This document shows, piece by piece, positions 25,870 through 31,373 of a stretch of 64,000 nt of DNA. The translations under genes and the position numbers were made by a program. Source of the stretch: Tatumella ptyseos ATCC 33301 (GTDB lineage Bacteria > Pseudomonadota > Gammaproteobacteria > Enterobacterales > Enterobacteriaceae); NCBI RefSeq assembly GCF_000735525.1, contig NZ_JMPR01000035.1:264006-328005 (forward strand), written 5' to 3'. Under the pieces are notes generated by a model, which worked only from the letters and a program-made list of their open reading frames with translations, ran no database searches and had not been told where the DNA came from. Each line of letters opens with the position of its first letter. The first letter of the stretch is position 1.

Positions 25870-27339
25870 ATGAGCAATGATAATAAACCAAAAATAACCA
25901 CCACTGACGCCGGCATACCGGTCGCCAGTGACGAGCACTCACTTTCTGTCGGCCCGGATGGCCCGCTGGTTCTCCATGATCATTACCTCATCGAACAGAT
26001 GGCGAATTTCAACCGTGAAAGGATCCCGGAACGGCAACCGCACGCCAAAGGGAGCGGTGCATTTGGCCATTTTGAAGTGACTGAAGATGTCAGCCGCTTT
26101 ACCCGCGCCGCCCTTTTCCAGCCGGGAGTGAAAACCGACGTATTAATGCGCTTCTCGACCGTCGCCGGTGAACGCGGCAGCCCGGATACCTGGCGTGATC
26201 CGCGCGGTTTCGCCATGAAATTTTACACTAGCGAGGGAAACTATGACCTGGTCGGGAATAACACGCCGGTTTTCTTTATTCGTGACCCGATGAAATTCCA
26301 GCATTTTATCCGCTCCCAGAAACGCCGTGCGGATAACAACCTGCGTGATAATGATATGCAGTGGGATTTCTGGACGCTTTCCCCGGAATCTGCACATCAG
26401 GTTGCCTGGCTGATGGGGGATCGTGGGATCCCGAAAAGCTGGCGACACATGAACGGATACTCCAGCCACACTTATATGTGGATAAACGCTGAAGGCGAGA
26501 AGTTCTGGGTTAAATATCACTTCAAAACCGATCAGGGCGTTGAATGCCTGACTCAGGAGGAAGCGGATAAACAAGCCGGTGCAGACGGCGATTTCCACGT
26601 CCGGGATTTGTACAACGCCATTGATAACGGTGAGTTCCCGCAGTGGACGCTGTATATGCAGGTTATGCCGTTCGCTGACGCGGAAAACTATCGTTTCAAC
26701 CCGTTCGACCTGACCAAAGTCTGGCCACACAGCGACTACCCGCTGATCAAAGTGGGCAAACTCACCCTGAATAAAAACCCGACAGATAACCATGCACAGA
26801 TAGAACAGGCCGCATTTGAGCCAAATAACCTGGTGCCGGGGATCGGTCTGAGCCCGGATAAAATGCTGTTGGGCCGTATTTTCGCCTACGCGGATGCGCA
26901 CCGCGCGCGTCTGGGGGTAAATTATAAGCAAATTCCGGTCAATGCCCCGCATTCGCCGGTGAACAGCTACAGTAAAGACGGCGCAATGCGAATGGATCCG
27001 GTCAGCGACCCGGTTTACGCCCCTAACTCGAAAGGAGGCCCGAAAGCCGACGGCGATCGTTATCCGACCGACTCCTCATGGGAGACTCAGGGCGCGCTGG
27101 TACGACAGCCTTACTCATTACATGCAGAAGATGATGACTTCGGTCAGGCCAGTACACTGGTGACTCAGGTTATGGATGATGCCGCCCGTGACCGTCTGGT
27201 GAACAATGTCACCGGACACCTGTTAAACGGCGTCCGGGAGCCGGTGCTGTCCAGGGTGTTCGATTACTGGCGGAAGATCGATCAGAATATCGGTGACCGT
27301 ATTGCCAACAGTGTGGCTGCCGCTCAGCAGAAATCGTAA
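25870..27339 (+). CDS. katA: monofunctional haem catalase (small-subunit, clade 3)
   Basis: 489 residues. It dismutes hydrogen peroxide to water and oxygen. The distal His is in [17 protein letters not shown], the distal Asn in [16 protein letters not shown] and the proximal haem-ligand Tyr in [38 protein letters not shown] is the family signature. Length and the lack of a C-terminal flavodoxin-like domain put it with small-subunit catalases, unlike E. coli KatE. A GGAG ribosome site precedes the ATG. The symbol follows common usage and is not certain. Confidence 0.92.
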
Positions 27340-27350
27340 TATCCCGCATG

Positions 27351-27375
27351 TCCGGCGGCTATGTCGCCGGATTTT
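27351..27375 (+). terminator. intrinsic terminator after the catalase gene
   Basis: TCCGGCG (27351-27357) pairs with CGCCGGA (27365-27371), followed by TTTT. It overlaps the 3' end of the convergent vsr gene. Confidence 0.6.
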
Positions 27376-27850
27376 CAGGAATTTCCAGCAAACGAATGCC
27401 GAACTGATCAATTTCTGCCGAATGTTCACCGGCACAGATCCACTCTTCCAGTCGCTCTGCCAGTGCCGTCGCCGGCAATTGCGTTTTACCTTTCATTGCA
27501 CATTCCCAGATGACCAGTACCTTCCAGCCCTGACGCTGCAGTGCCTGCAGGTTTTCTTTGTCCCGTTGCAAATTACGACCGATTTTCGCCAGCCAGAAAT
27601 CCGTTCGGGTGGCCGGCGGTTTAAACAGGTGACAATGATGATGGTGCCAGAAACAACCGTGAGTAAAAATGACCTTTCGCGCCGTCTCCAGGACAAAATC
27701 AGGGCGGCCCGGCAGATCTCTGGCTTGCTGCCGTACTTCCAGCCCCAGGTCTGTCAGTAACTGCTGTAACTGCTTTTCAATGCCGGTATTACAGTGACGG
27801 ATAGCCCGCATGTTTTTGCTGCGGGTCTCGCGGTTATGCACATCAGCCAT
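27359..27850 (-). CDS. vsr: very short patch repair endonuclease Vsr
   Basis: 163 residues from ATG 27850 (MADVHNRETRSKNM...); E. coli Vsr is 156. Vsr nicks 5' of the mismatched T in T:G pairs formed when 5-methylcytosine deaminates in Dcm sites. The fold and metal-binding residues are seen in LPGRPDFVLETARKVIFTHG and CFWHHHHCHLFKPPATRTDFW, which contain the catalytic Asp and the conserved His residues. RSKNMRAIRHCNTGIEKQL is the family N-terminal signature. In E. coli vsr overlaps dcm; no dcm is adjacent here. The longer reading from 27898 lacks homology. Confidence 0.9.
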   Translation of the reverse strand: MADVHNRETRSKNMRAIRHCNTGIEKQLQQLLTDLGLEVRQQARDLPGRPDFVLETARKVIFTHGCFWHHHHCHLFKPPATRTDFWLAKIGRNLQRDKENLQALQRQGWKVLVIWECAMKGKTQLPATALAERLEEWICAGEHSAEIDQFGIRLLEIPENPAT

Positions 27851-27938
27851 CTTCACTCCTCTGTTGACGGCAAACTGCCGGTGCAGGCCGTTGATCACAG
27901 TGAACTGTTCACGATCCCTGATGACTAACTGACATCAG

Positions 27939-27955
27939 CTTAAGGTTTCCTTAAT
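27939..27955 (+). promoter_or_regulatory. BasR (PmrA) box upstream of basRS
   Basis: CTTAAG-GTTTC-CTTAAT at 27939-27955 matches the PmrA/BasR direct-repeat consensus YTTAAK-N5-YTTAAK without mismatch. It lies 313 bases before the basR ATG, with only leader sequence between, and 88 bases upstream of the divergent vsr start. Autoregulation of basRS is the likely meaning. Confidence 0.65.
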
Positions 27956-28268
27956 ACTTCCCCCGCACAATAACCGCGGTGTGCGGGCCACTGTAATAAC
28001 ATTATTACCGGCCGGTCAGCGTCAATGACCGGATAAACGCGGGGTGTAAAGACGCAGAAGCTTTCCCGCAGGACAGACGTGATAGGCTGATATTCCAGTG
28101 CTTCCCGGCAGACGGAGGCTTCAGCATATCCGTACACCACACAGCAACATGGTTAATAACAACACAAGATGTGCAGGAGAGCCAGCCCCGGGCACTGCAG
28201 GGTCGGTTTGGCAGGAGATCTCCTCCCCCCGCCCTGCCGTACCGGATTGCCTTCTGCCGGAGCCACGG
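27956..28268 (+). other. long leader upstream of basR
   Basis: About 310 bases between the BasR box and basR hold no recognisable gene. The basR frame stays open upstream to ATG 28149, but the extension has no homology and the basR start at 28269 fits the family exactly. A GGAGATCTCC palindrome lies near 28213. If transcription starts near the BasR box, this is an unusually long 5' untranslated region. Confidence 0.4.
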
Positions 28269-28955
28269 ATGAAAATACTGATTGTCGAAGACGATACCTT
28301 GCTCCTTGAGGGACTGATGCAGGCCATGCAACAGGAAGGCTATACCTGTGATGGTGTCAGCAGTGCCCGGATGGCGGATAACAGTCTTAAAACCTCGCAA
28401 TACAGCCTGATGATCCTCGACCTCGGATTACCGGATGAAGACGGTTTACAACTGTTGTTACGCCTGCGCCGTGAAAAAATGGCCTTGCCGGTACTGATCC
28501 TGACGGCACGCGATACCCTGAGCGACAGGATCACCGGACTTGACAGTGGTGCCGATGACTACCTGATTAAACCTTTTGCGCTGGAAGAACTGACTGCACG
28601 TATCCGTGCGCTGATCCGCAGGCACAATAACCAGAGCGATAATCGTCTGATCGTTAATGACCTGGTGCTGGATGTCACCTATCGCCAGGTATTCCGGGAA
28701 GGCAAACGCCTGGAACTGACCCCGAAGGAATACGCGTTACTGGCCCGGTTAATGATGAAGGCCGGTATGCCGGTGCATCGTGAGATCCTGTATAACGATA
28801 TTTATAGCTGGGACAGCGAGCCTGCCACCAATACCCTGGAGGTACATATCCATAACCTGCGCAAGAAGATCGGCCGGGCATCTATACGGACATTGCGCGG
28901 CTTCGGATATGTGCTGATTAAGAAAAAAAACTGTTCTGAGGAGTCACTATCCTGA
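28269..28955 (+). CDS. basR: response regulator BasR (PmrA)
   Basis: 228 residues from ATG 28269. The receiver domain holds the acidic pair EDD at residues 7-9, the phospho-acceptor Asp in [12 protein letters not shown] and Lys in [13 protein letters not shown]. The OmpR-type winged helix follows: [19 protein letters not shown] and [15 protein letters not shown]. These closely match E. coli BasR (222 residues). BasR activates lipid A modification genes in response to iron, aluminium or mild acid. Its stop overlaps the basS start region. Confidence 0.93.
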
Positions 28956-30052
28956 ACCTGTCCCCTAAAACGACCACGTTACGTCGCCGGTTGCTGATCA
29001 CCGTGGGCTCTATTCTGCTATTCTGCCAGGCCATCAGCGTGCTGTGGCTATGGCATGAAAGTAAAGAACAGATAGATCTGCTGGTAGAAGGCGTATTGAG
29101 CCACCGTAACGAACAATGGCATGTGGATAAAGAAATCCATGAAGCACTTGCCAGTCTGGCTATTCCAAGCTTTGTGATGATTTGTCTGGCGCTGGTGCTC
29201 TGCTGGCAAGCGGTGCGGCGGGTCACCCAGCCCCTGTCTGATCTCTGCCTGCAACTGGAGAAACGCTCGGGCTTTTCTGCCGAACCCATCGAATTTCAAA
29301 GCAGGATCACCGAAATTGACGCCGTCACGCATGCGATTAATGATATGGTCGCCCGCCTGACCGATACCCTGAACCGGGAACGGTTATTTACCGCGGATGT
29401 GGCCCATGAACTACGCACCCCCCTGGCCGGGTTACGTCTCCACCTGGAACTGATGGCCCGCCAGCACCACCTGGATATGTCTTCCCTGATCCTGCGTCTG
29501 GATCAGATGACCAATAGTGTTTCTCAGTTATTACAGCTGGCGCGGATCAGCCAGTCCTTTACGGAAGGCAATTACCAGCCGGTATTATTGAGAAAAACCG
29601 TGATTTTTCCGCTACGGGACAGTCTGCTGACCATGATTAAATTGCGCCACCAGCAATTGATCCTGCCGGAGGCTGAACATGATTTTAGCGTACAGGGAGA
29701 CCCGACGCTGCTGCAATTGATTGTGCGTAATCTGACAGAGAATGCTCATCGTTATAGCCCGGAACACAGCACCCTGCGCATCAGTCTGCATCCTGTGGTC
29801 ACAGAAGAAGGTCGGCCGGGCATTGAACTTTCAGTGGAAGATGAAGGGCCTGGCATTGATGAAACCCGTGCCAGTGAACTGAGCCGGGCATTTGTACGGA
29901 TGGATAGCCGCTACGGTGGCAGTGGCCTTGGGCTGAGTATTGTCAGCAGGATCTGCCAGCTGCATCATGCCCGTTTTACCCTCACTAACCGGACGGATCG
30001 CCAGGGTTGCCGGGCCTCGGTCATTTATCCGCTAGCGGACGAAACCCTTTAA
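28952..30052 (+). CDS. basS: sensor histidine kinase BasS (PmrB), likely CTG start
   Basis: 366 residues if translation starts at CTG 28952, giving the length of E. coli BasS (363) and its basic N-terminus before the first membrane segment ([17 protein letters not shown]). GAGGAG at 28938-28943 lies eight bases upstream and the CTG overlaps the basR TGA; a TTG at 28991 would remove the N-terminal tail. A short periplasmic loop (about residues 40-70) separates two membrane helices. The HAMP linker, DHp box [19 protein letters not shown] with the phospho-His, N box [14 protein letters not shown]1 EDEGPGIDE and G2 [10 protein letters not shown] are intact. Confidence 0.9.
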
Positions 30053-30153
30053 AAACTGGTAAACCAGACCAGCAGAAAAATCACAACTGTACTCAGACTG
30101 AGTAAAGCAGCACTGAGTTCACTTCCGGAAAAGGTCGCTTTATTCTCCATCAT
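30049..30153 (-). CDS. 34-residue membrane micropeptide under a BasR box (PmrR-like)
   Basis: A short leftward frame, ATG 30153 (or 30150) to TAA 30049, with AGGAG four to seven bases before the start codons. It reads a polar N-terminus (MMENKATFSGSE) followed by one hydrophobic helix (LSAALLSLSTVVIFLLVWF) and ends in TSF. A perfect BasR box lies 44-60 bases upstream. Salmonella PmrR, a membrane peptide of about 30 residues activated by PmrA that inhibits the lipid A kinase LpxT, has a similar size and a similar hydrophobic-aromatic C-terminus. The equivalence is inference from size, topology and box, not from strong sequence identity. It converges on basS, with the stops overlapping by three bases. 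Confidence 0.6.
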   Translation of the reverse strand: MMENKATFSGSELSAALLSLSTVVIFLLVWFTSF

Positions 30154-30196
30154 TACTCTCCTGTCAGGGGGTGTCAGCAGAGTATTTCAGGTAATG

Positions 30197-30213
30197 ATTA
30201 AATTAATATTAAG
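30197..30213 (-). promoter_or_regulatory. BasR (PmrA) box of the micropeptide gene
   Basis: On the minus strand the sequence is CTTAAT-ATTAA-TTTAAT, a perfect YTTAAK-N5-YTTAAK direct repeat. It sits between the acid phosphatase terminator and the micropeptide start, so that gene is its only downstream target on this strand. Chance occurrence in an AT-rich spot is possible, but two perfect boxes flanking basRS argue against it. Confidence 0.65.
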
Positions 30214-30233
30214 CCGGTGAGAAAATCACCGGC
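30213..30233 (-). terminator. terminator of the acid phosphatase gene
   Basis: GCCGGTGA (30213-30220) pairs with TCACCGGC (30226-30233) across a five-base loop; on the minus strand the stem is followed by TTAATATTAATTT. It ends exactly where the BasR box begins, separating phosphatase and micropeptide transcripts. Confidence 0.6.
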
Positions 30234-30273: not shown

Positions 30274-31023
30274 TCAGGCCTGAGGAACGCTGAATTCTGC
30301 TTTCGCTTTTTGTAACTGAGCCGTGAACTCCTGCGAGGTGTGCAGCGTTGCCACGACCGCGGACCCCACCAGCCGTGCCGCATCCACATCACTTTGCCAG
30401 TGATAGCCGCAAATCACCCGGCTTTGACCGAGTTCATATCCCCGTTTCAGGATCTCATTCTGTCGCGCAGGATTAACTTCGGCCAGTACCAGAGCCGTGG
30501 CCCAGCCAATGGCGGTGTGTCCGGAAGGATAAGAACCATTAGAGGAAAGTTCTGCTTGCTGGCGGGTGTTACAGGTAGCCACCTTATAAAAAGCAAACGG
30601 GCGAATACGCATATAGTGTTGCTTTGCCGATCGGGTGGCCAGATCACCGGCATCTTCGATCATATTAGTCAGTAGCTTGTAGAGTTGCGGGGTGGTTGCG
30701 GCACTGATCTCGTGGCCAAATGCCCCGGAGAACGCACTGGCTACCCCGCCACTGCTGAGATTTGCATCGTCGGCCGCCAGTTTACCGCGGGGGGTGTCGC
30801 GTAATAGCCGGCCCTGTTCATACATCGCCTGATCGTTGAGAAAAGTAAGACTGCCAGGCGCAGGCGGAGGGGGCAGTAAGGCCAGACTATCAATGGCCTG
30901 GCTGTTAGTCAGATAGTAGAGCTCAGGCCGGGTGGTCGCATCATTACCGGCGGGGATGGCGGCATATCCGGTCCCGCTCAACAGCCATGCAGAGATCATA
31001 AATACTGACAGTTTTTTGACCAT
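30274..31023 (-). CDS. class A non-specific acid phosphatase (PhoN/PhoC-like, PAP2 superfamily)
   Basis: 249 residues from ATG 31023, preceded by AGGA; a further ATG at 31032 is possible. The signal peptide is [21 protein letters not shown]. The PAP2/class A signature is complete: K(x6)RP in [13 protein letters not shown] in [13 protein letters not shown], and SR(x5)H(x3)D in [17 protein letters not shown]. These enzymes release phosphate from organic phosphoesters in the periplasm via a phospho-His intermediate. The length equals Morganella/Providencia-type PhoC/PhoN proteins. In Salmonella phoN is PhoP-regulated; here it sits beside basRS, but the BasR box points away from it. Confidence 0.88.
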
Positions 31024-31373
31024 AATAAACATCCTGTAAAAAAACGGTGAGAGGCACCGACGTTACCACGTCACATTGCACTTAACTCCGGTACCGGTCA
31101 CAGTTCAGGCTTTGCCCGCAGGTCCGGACGGACAGAGACTCGCGGGGGGTTAATCAGGTGCGAGCTGTTCACTGTCCATCGCCATCAGAGCGTTTTTCTC
31201 TGCGTAGGAATTCCTCCGGAAAAACCGGACGTTAGCGATGATTTTCCCGGGAAAGCATTTGCGCAATGCCTATGAAACATTTATTGTTCCTGCGTCTGAC
31301 GAACCGCGCGGACATTATTACTCTTCAGTCAGGTTTGTTTTTCACCAATGTCGTGCAGTAACGTCGGGAATTT
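31024..31373. other. 350-base intergenic region, no gene seen
   Basis: Divergent promoters for the acid phosphatase (leftward) and the TRIC-type channel (rightward) must lie here. No RNA gene, repeat or operator was recognised. Confidence 0.35.

Follow-up and report, generated by a model that had tools for sequence, protein, structure and literature searches.

A probable pmrR orthologue convergent with basS in Tatumella ptyseos, and a conserved inverted repeat in enterobacterial pmrR leaders

An unannotated 34-codon frame on the reverse strand (30049–30153) of the window, a 64,000-nt stretch of the Tatumella ptyseos ATCC 33301 genome, is very probably, on comparative sequence grounds, the Tatumella orthologue of the pmrR gene known from E. 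coli and Salmonella. The locus as a whole is best explained as a Tatumella pmrR that is BasR-controlled, inhibits LpxT and may be guarded by a hairpin in its leader, a reading to which we assign a probability of about 0.82. Like PmrR of E. coli (b4703) and Salmonella, the frame is convergent with and overlaps pmrB/basS, follows a perfect PmrA box 43–44 nt before its ATG and encodes a peptide of ~30 residues with one hydrophobic helix and an F-x3-W motif, in a genome that also carries LpxT; an inverted repeat over the Shine-Dalgarno is likewise shared. It differs from the E. coli/Salmonella system in that the window peptide, at 34 residues, has a longer N-terminus that is not net positive, is unmatched by the NCBIfam PmrR model (NF033224) and comes from a genome in which EptA was not found, and in the upstream neighbour, which is phoC in the window and proP in E. 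coli/Salmonella.

Within the window, basR (pmrA; response regulator, 28269–28955, forward strand) and basS (pmrB; sensor kinase, 28991–30052, forward strand) both score above the cut-offs of NCBIfam equivalog models (PRK10643, 366.6 bits, and PRK10755, 501.5 bits, respectively). Among the best 80 of 248 relatives, Tatumella sp. JGM118 has the closest basS (91%). pmrR runs towards basS, which ends at 30052, and the two genes share 4 bp at their stops. Tandem ATGs at 30153 and 30150 mean that either is possible as the pmrR start, and the Shine-Dalgarno AGGAGA (30157–30162) lies 4–9 nt 5′ of the first. A frame of this length with a ribosome site and one hydrophobic helix had been described in an earlier sequence-only reading, and all three features are confirmed here, the single helix by hydropathy only. 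The N-terminus is not net positive, unlike that of E. coli PmrR, and the topology is therefore less certain. The peptide has no Pfam match, and a sub-cut-off NCBIfam match to Heimdall-CTERM (E 0.055) was taken as a hydrophobic-helix artefact. Upstream of pmrR and co-directional with it lies phoC (acid phosphatase; 30274–31032, reverse strand; NF045654, 441.8 bits, cut-off 430), followed by a terminator-like stem (30213–30233, reverse strand; 8 pairs) with a T-poor tail into the PmrA box. The earlier reading had a phosphatase terminator end at the box; a terminator scan returned 2 sites in 2 kb vs 2.0 in shuffles, and the stem after phoC is thus not beyond chance.

The PmrA/BasR box reported upstream of the frame was found at 30197–30213 (reverse strand; CTTAATATTAATTTAAT), a perfect YTTAAK-N5-YTTAAK separated from the pmrR ATG by 43 nt, compared with 44 nt in E. 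coli MG1655. There are two perfect boxes in the 64-kb window vs 0.06 in shuffles, and six in the whole genome vs eight for a backward-pattern control; the box alone therefore proves little, and it is its place that counts. Three of the six genomic boxes stand in front of pmrR, basRS and arnB (the last identified by a 692.1-bit model match), that of basRS being the second perfect box of the window by pattern match (27939–27955, forward strand). For the remaining three no target could be clearly placed, and chance is likely given the control. A predicted -10 hexamer, AATACT (30181–30186, reverse strand), lies 10 nt 3′ of the pmrR box. In an alignment of 66 leaders its A at position 2 and its T at position 6 never vary, a pattern scan finds a hexamer of the -10 kind 10 nt past the box in 99/104 distinct leaders, and TAAAAT follows the E. 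coli arnB box at the same spacing as in pmrR leaders.

Comparison of 80 basS loci (the best 80 of 248 relatives) identified a convergent hydrophobic frame with a PmrA box 40–45 nt before its start in 66, the box being perfect in 51 of these and carrying one mismatch in 15. Recurrence of the frame at the same box spacing beside basS in 66/80 of these loci is more than chance overall. In E. coli MG1655 the corresponding gene is annotated (b4703), convergent with basS and overlapping its 3′ end by 25 bp. The frame is open in all six Tatumella genomes, five of which have a box with 0–1 mismatch; in the sixth, T. saanichensis, the frame is kept and the box has four mismatches (1/80 of the same loci). 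Loss or interruption of the frame in relatives, which the sequence-only reading had named as evidence against its proposal, is thus not seen in Tatumella, but the frame is missing at 13 of the best 80 of 248 loci: three from Atlantibacter, two from Superficieibacter, six from Pectobacterium, one from a Pluralibacter MAG and one from a record labelled Citrobacter freundii, in which the BasS end is similar.

Beyond this set, 70 of 130 further family basS loci carry pmrR, these loci having been drawn from 210/392 genomes with a BasS match (30 supplied by the search itself and 100 chosen mostly by rank order) and with many of the same species; one consists of a 395-base stretch only, so that its negative call is weak. 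The overall tally over 211 loci is 137 with pmrR, three ambiguous and 71 without. Because F-x3-W was required in the screen of the further loci, the 70/130 count cannot test that motif. An order-wide HMM search with the family alignment reached E ≤ 0.01 in only 20/394 genomes, and several of these matches are clearly pieces of longer reading frames; the search is too insensitive for a 30-residue peptide, and synteny with basS was used instead. T. saanichensis has lost both the box and the leader hairpin, has TATACT at the -10 place and carries EptA in its genome; its pmrR may by now be expressed constitutively. A record titled Chryseobacterium has an enterobacterial basS-pmrR locus, and is therefore mislabelled or mixed.

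At the peptide level, only F26 and W30 (window numbering), that is F-x3-W, are invariant in 61/61 aligned peptides (mean column identity, 36%), the frame picker for this set having favoured a late W and not the F. In the family alignment the window peptide is 24% identical to E. coli PmrR, and a Tatumella profile matches that of Escherichia/Citrobacter/Salmonella peptides with 95% probability over 23 columns, vs 0.7% for a reversed-sequence control. NF033224 (cut-off 30 bits) has no match to the window peptide; it matches 23/61 family members at E ≤ 0.01 and misses 38/61, and is therefore a narrow model. pN/pS is 0.35 across the six Tatumella (21 codons, from Glu12 on) and 0.26, 0.24, 0.22, 0.39 and 0.22 in five other clades (that of Escherichia limited to 25 sequences, with the basS overlap trimmed), vs 0.80–0.94 for shuffled columns, with 0/300 shuffles as low in Tatumella or in any of the five clades; for the window and its nearest relative alone it is 0.25 (8/298 shuffles as low). 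pmrR codons are under purifying selection, and the codon-level conservation that the sequence-only reading proposed to look for is present, at pN/pS 0.25–0.35. Short frames are common and the genomic box count is about that of the backward control, as would be expected of a chance open frame behind a chance box; conservation of frame, codons, box and spacing rules this reading out, with the pN/pS test refuting it, and we give it almost no credence. The candidate PmrR functional homologue of the earlier reading is supported by place, box spacing and the 95% profile match; the wording is rather too weak for what is very probably the orthologue, although its lipid A role would be one carried over from E. 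coli and Salmonella.

Most pmrR leaders examined, including that of E. coli K-12, contain a covarying inverted repeat between the box and the ATG, and its standing as a real conserved structure is well supported. In the window, the left arm (30175–30184, reverse strand) overlaps the -10/discriminator and is predicted to be untranscribed from the BasR promoter, while the right arm (30154–30163, reverse strand) contains the Shine-Dalgarno. Over 66 distinct leaders the mean fold is -15.7 kcal/mol vs -7.7 for dinucleotide shuffles, 58/66 falling in the best 5%; the E. coli K-12 leader folds at -19.9 kcal/mol and the window copy, which has one G.G mismatch, at -11.3. In an alignment in which the window leader and one other were cut to the second ATG, 82.3% of the cells of a 12-pair structure are standard pairs, compared with 36–52% for slid registers, doubly changed cells number 57 vs 21.4 ± 3.6 in shuffles, and covariation is 0.238 vs 0.121, with 0/500 shuffles as high for either of the last two. 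Two measures were weaker: 6 pairs had both sides changed, vs 4.1 (34/500 shuffles as high), and there were 19 further pair types, vs 16.6 (26/500). A BasS tree of 64 of the 66 taxa (two loci, from which basS was not cut, were left out) gives 19 pair-keeping double changes over ten pairs, eight of them at one pair, compared with 0, 2, 3, 5, 6 and 8 for six slid registers, ties being resolved towards pairs in every register. The same tree has 47 pair-breaking changes, and the stem is therefore not rigid. Watson-Crick cells number 796/989 vs 691 shuffled in 99 leaders and 176/230 vs 150.6 in 23 co-directional leaders thinned below 75% identity; T. saanichensis (frame without box) and one spurious frame were left out of the leader sets.

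A reading of the repeat as a DNA operator was rejected, since the arms change in sequence yet keep pairing, with five standard pair types at one position. An intrinsic terminator was likewise rejected, there being no U-tract. Neither a pmrR leader structure nor a Tatumella pmrR appears in the papers searched on pmrR, which were available mostly as listings or passages.

A transcription start 6–8 nt past the -10 would exclude the left arm from the BasR mRNA, so that the hairpin would form only in RNA coming from upstream. Hypothetically, the repeat would form a hairpin that keeps read-through RNA untranslated and leaves the BasR-started mRNA free. For 95 co-directional leaders (box-less T. saanichensis included) openness of the Shine-Dalgarno is predicted at 0.17 for read-through RNA vs 0.38 from the assumed start, 51/95 gaining >0.2, a result that partly follows from the start assumed; for ten divergent leaders the values are 0.38 and 0.33, respectively. 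Mean fold is -17.0 in 94 co-directional leaders vs -7.6 in ten divergent leaders (Mann-Whitney p 3e-6), with neighbour orientation called by simple frame length and with a p value that overstates independence: Erwinia/Pantoea-type peptides account for nine of the ten divergent leaders, perhaps one or two events. Within these nine, folds of -9.3 and -11.7 persist in two leaders; Pluralibacter gergoviae, whose divergent neighbour ~800 bp off looks fimbrial by eye, retains the repeat at -13.2; and weak folds (-5.5 to -8.7) occur in three co-directional leaders of the Kluyvera type.

The repeat could instead act as a hairpin within pmrR's own mRNA, started further upstream, and tune translation, for example with temperature. 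The strong fold over the Shine-Dalgarno in the 66 leaders would suit such a role, but the predicted -10, with its invariant A and T, sits in the left arm, and its 10-nt spacing from the box equals that of TAAAAT past the E. coli arnB box; we regard this alternative as unlikely.

The chief rival to read-through silencing places the repeat at the service of the convergent basS mRNA, as a 3′-end hairpin or terminator that raises the basRS mRNA level. In passages of one paper, stem-loops are predicted for the pmrB 3′ region in E. coli BL21, whose length is reported to have had a strong effect on the amount of pmrB mRNA, and plasmid constructs with 86, 103 or 126 bp downstream of pmrB failed to give, gave partial or gave full colistin resistance, respectively (PMC8004244). 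Mapped onto MG1655 from the base after the stop, +86 stops immediately short of the left arm, +103 takes in the whole repeat and the -10, and +126 reaches the far end of the PmrA box. The region of the predicted stem-loops covers this DNA on the other strand, the construct-length effect maps onto the leader repeat, and leaders fold about equally on either strand (-15.8 and -15.2 kcal/mol), all in favour of a basS role. However, the pmrR promoter is completed by these very steps, and the construct data, as far as those passages give them, could reflect that completion, a role at the basS 3′ end, or the two together. On the basS strand no U-tract follows the repeat (0/89 co-directional leaders with at least 6 T in 10), and the repeat keeps a near-fixed position relative to the pmrR ATG (0–7 nt, sd 1.4), whereas its distance from the basS stop varies widely (36–135 nt, sd 17).

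The strand on which pairing is kept also bears on this rival. In 99 leaders A.C cells, which would read as G.U on the basS strand, number 52 where shuffles give 65.8 (z -5.2), a depletion that G.U cells do not show (62 vs 64.1; z -0.6); the corresponding z values are -6.5 and -2.3 in 89 co-directional leaders and -3.0 and -0.7 in the 23 thinned leaders. In the first set of 66 leaders the raw counts at core pairs (G.U 38, A.C 33) were equivocal, and against shuffles A.C was depleted (33 vs 45). Depletion of A.C but not of G.U points to a hairpin in pmrR-sense RNA, and a basS role, though the leading competitor, is judged improbable, on a par with the own-mRNA hairpin. To the fuller proposition, that the pmrR read-through silencer of Enterobacteriaceae is kept by compensatory change and weakened by a divergent neighbour, and that Tatumella PmrR works without EptA, we give an even chance.

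Fold-back pairing of the Shine-Dalgarno with sequence 5′ of the gene's own start silences outside transcripts in the transposase genes of IS10 and IS50, a precedent for read-through silencing that was not found in the papers searched. pmrR differs from these in being a chromosomal, regulated, small-protein gene and not a mobile element, and in having an upstream arm that doubles as the predicted -10.

BasS sensing of iron or mild acid activates BasR. Following this pathway, which is taken from the literature, activated BasR would bind the box at 30197–30213, and transcription would start ~20 nt before the pmrR ATG, as judged from the predicted -10. The peptide, 34 residues long with one helix, would enter the inner membrane and, by analogy with E. 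coli and Salmonella, inhibit LpxT, so that the lipid A 1-position would keep one phosphate rather than two and the surface would carry less negative charge. In longer RNA from phoC the hairpin may hide the Shine-Dalgarno, and the peptide would then be made mainly from BasR-started mRNA.

LpxT is present in all six Tatumella (58–59% identity to E. coli LpxT), the copy in the window's genome lying on contig C28 (165170–165850; 58% identity, E 1e-84), and ArnT is also found in 6/6. EptA, at 64–70% identity, is found in 3/6 Tatumella only, T. saanichensis among these. In the window's genome and the two other Tatumella EptA was not found, the best hits being just 28–29% identical and corresponding to kdo2-lipid A phosphoethanolamine 7′′-transferases (EptB-type) by NCBIfam, far under the EptA cut-offs. 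A match to E. coli EptA lies in the locus flank of 78/80 basS loci (best 80 of 248). Just 5′ of basRS, where most relatives have eptA, the window has a Vsr mismatch endonuclease (profile match; 27359–27898) and a frame that we take to be catalase-like (25870–27339). The second PmrA box lies ~310 nt 5′ of basR, with no eptA match between them (tblastn, E 1e-5; window 27939–28268).

In E. coli the stated benefit of LpxT inhibition includes room for EptA. With no EptA found in the genome, the benefit of PmrR is probably lower charge, a damped Fe3+ signal at BasS, or access for ArnT; Tatumella PmrR would probably either reduce the charge of lipid A, and with it the BasS signal, or favour ArnT. Passages of the published work describe E. 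coli PmrR as an LpxT inhibitor (PMC8129183; PMC4651636), competition between EptA and LpxT for lipid A position 1 (PMC8129183), and a PmrA-constitutive E. coli that became polymyxin-susceptible and deoxycholate-resistant again when the PmrA box was removed from pmrR (PMC8129183). Such passages also describe iron-selected E. coli B, in which pmrR and the arn genes rise together (PMC13405929), and feedback on PmrB in Salmonella (PMC8004244).

A BasR-regulated membrane peptide of the same descent could have another target in Tatumella, such as BasS, ArnT or another lipid A enzyme. With no EptA hit above 29% in the window's genome and two other Tatumella, the E. coli logic is not carried over whole, and the peptide evolves fast, as its mean column identity indicates; retention of LpxT in all six Tatumella and the F-x3-W common to the Tatumella peptide and E. 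coli PmrR argue against a change of target, which we consider rather less likely still than either of the rival roles for the repeat. LpxT was found in 49/50 genomes tried (50 of the 80 loci), including 12/13 without PmrR, and being nearly universal it makes LpxT-PmrR co-occurrence a test of function with little power. In Kluyvera genomosp. 3 (contig C1:1646078–1646756) an lpxT-like sequence is in three pieces with a stop, and pmrR is intact; the break could be a sequencing error or a real loss.

The window gene adds a member to the known PmrR family, and the leader repeat as a pmrR element is without account in the papers searched, as far as their listings and passages go. Many pmrR copies escape the naming model (38/61 family members unmatched), and convergence with basS, a box 40–45 nt upstream and F-x3-W provide a usable signature. 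If it is true, the read-through silencer would be a way to hold a potent membrane micropeptide tightly off, and would offer another reading of the published pmrB 3′-end effect. PmrR sets lipid A charge and hence the response to polymyxins, iron and bile, and a genome without detectable EptA but with PmrR, LpxT and ArnT would allow competition with EptA to be told apart from charge and signal feedback as the basic job of the peptide.
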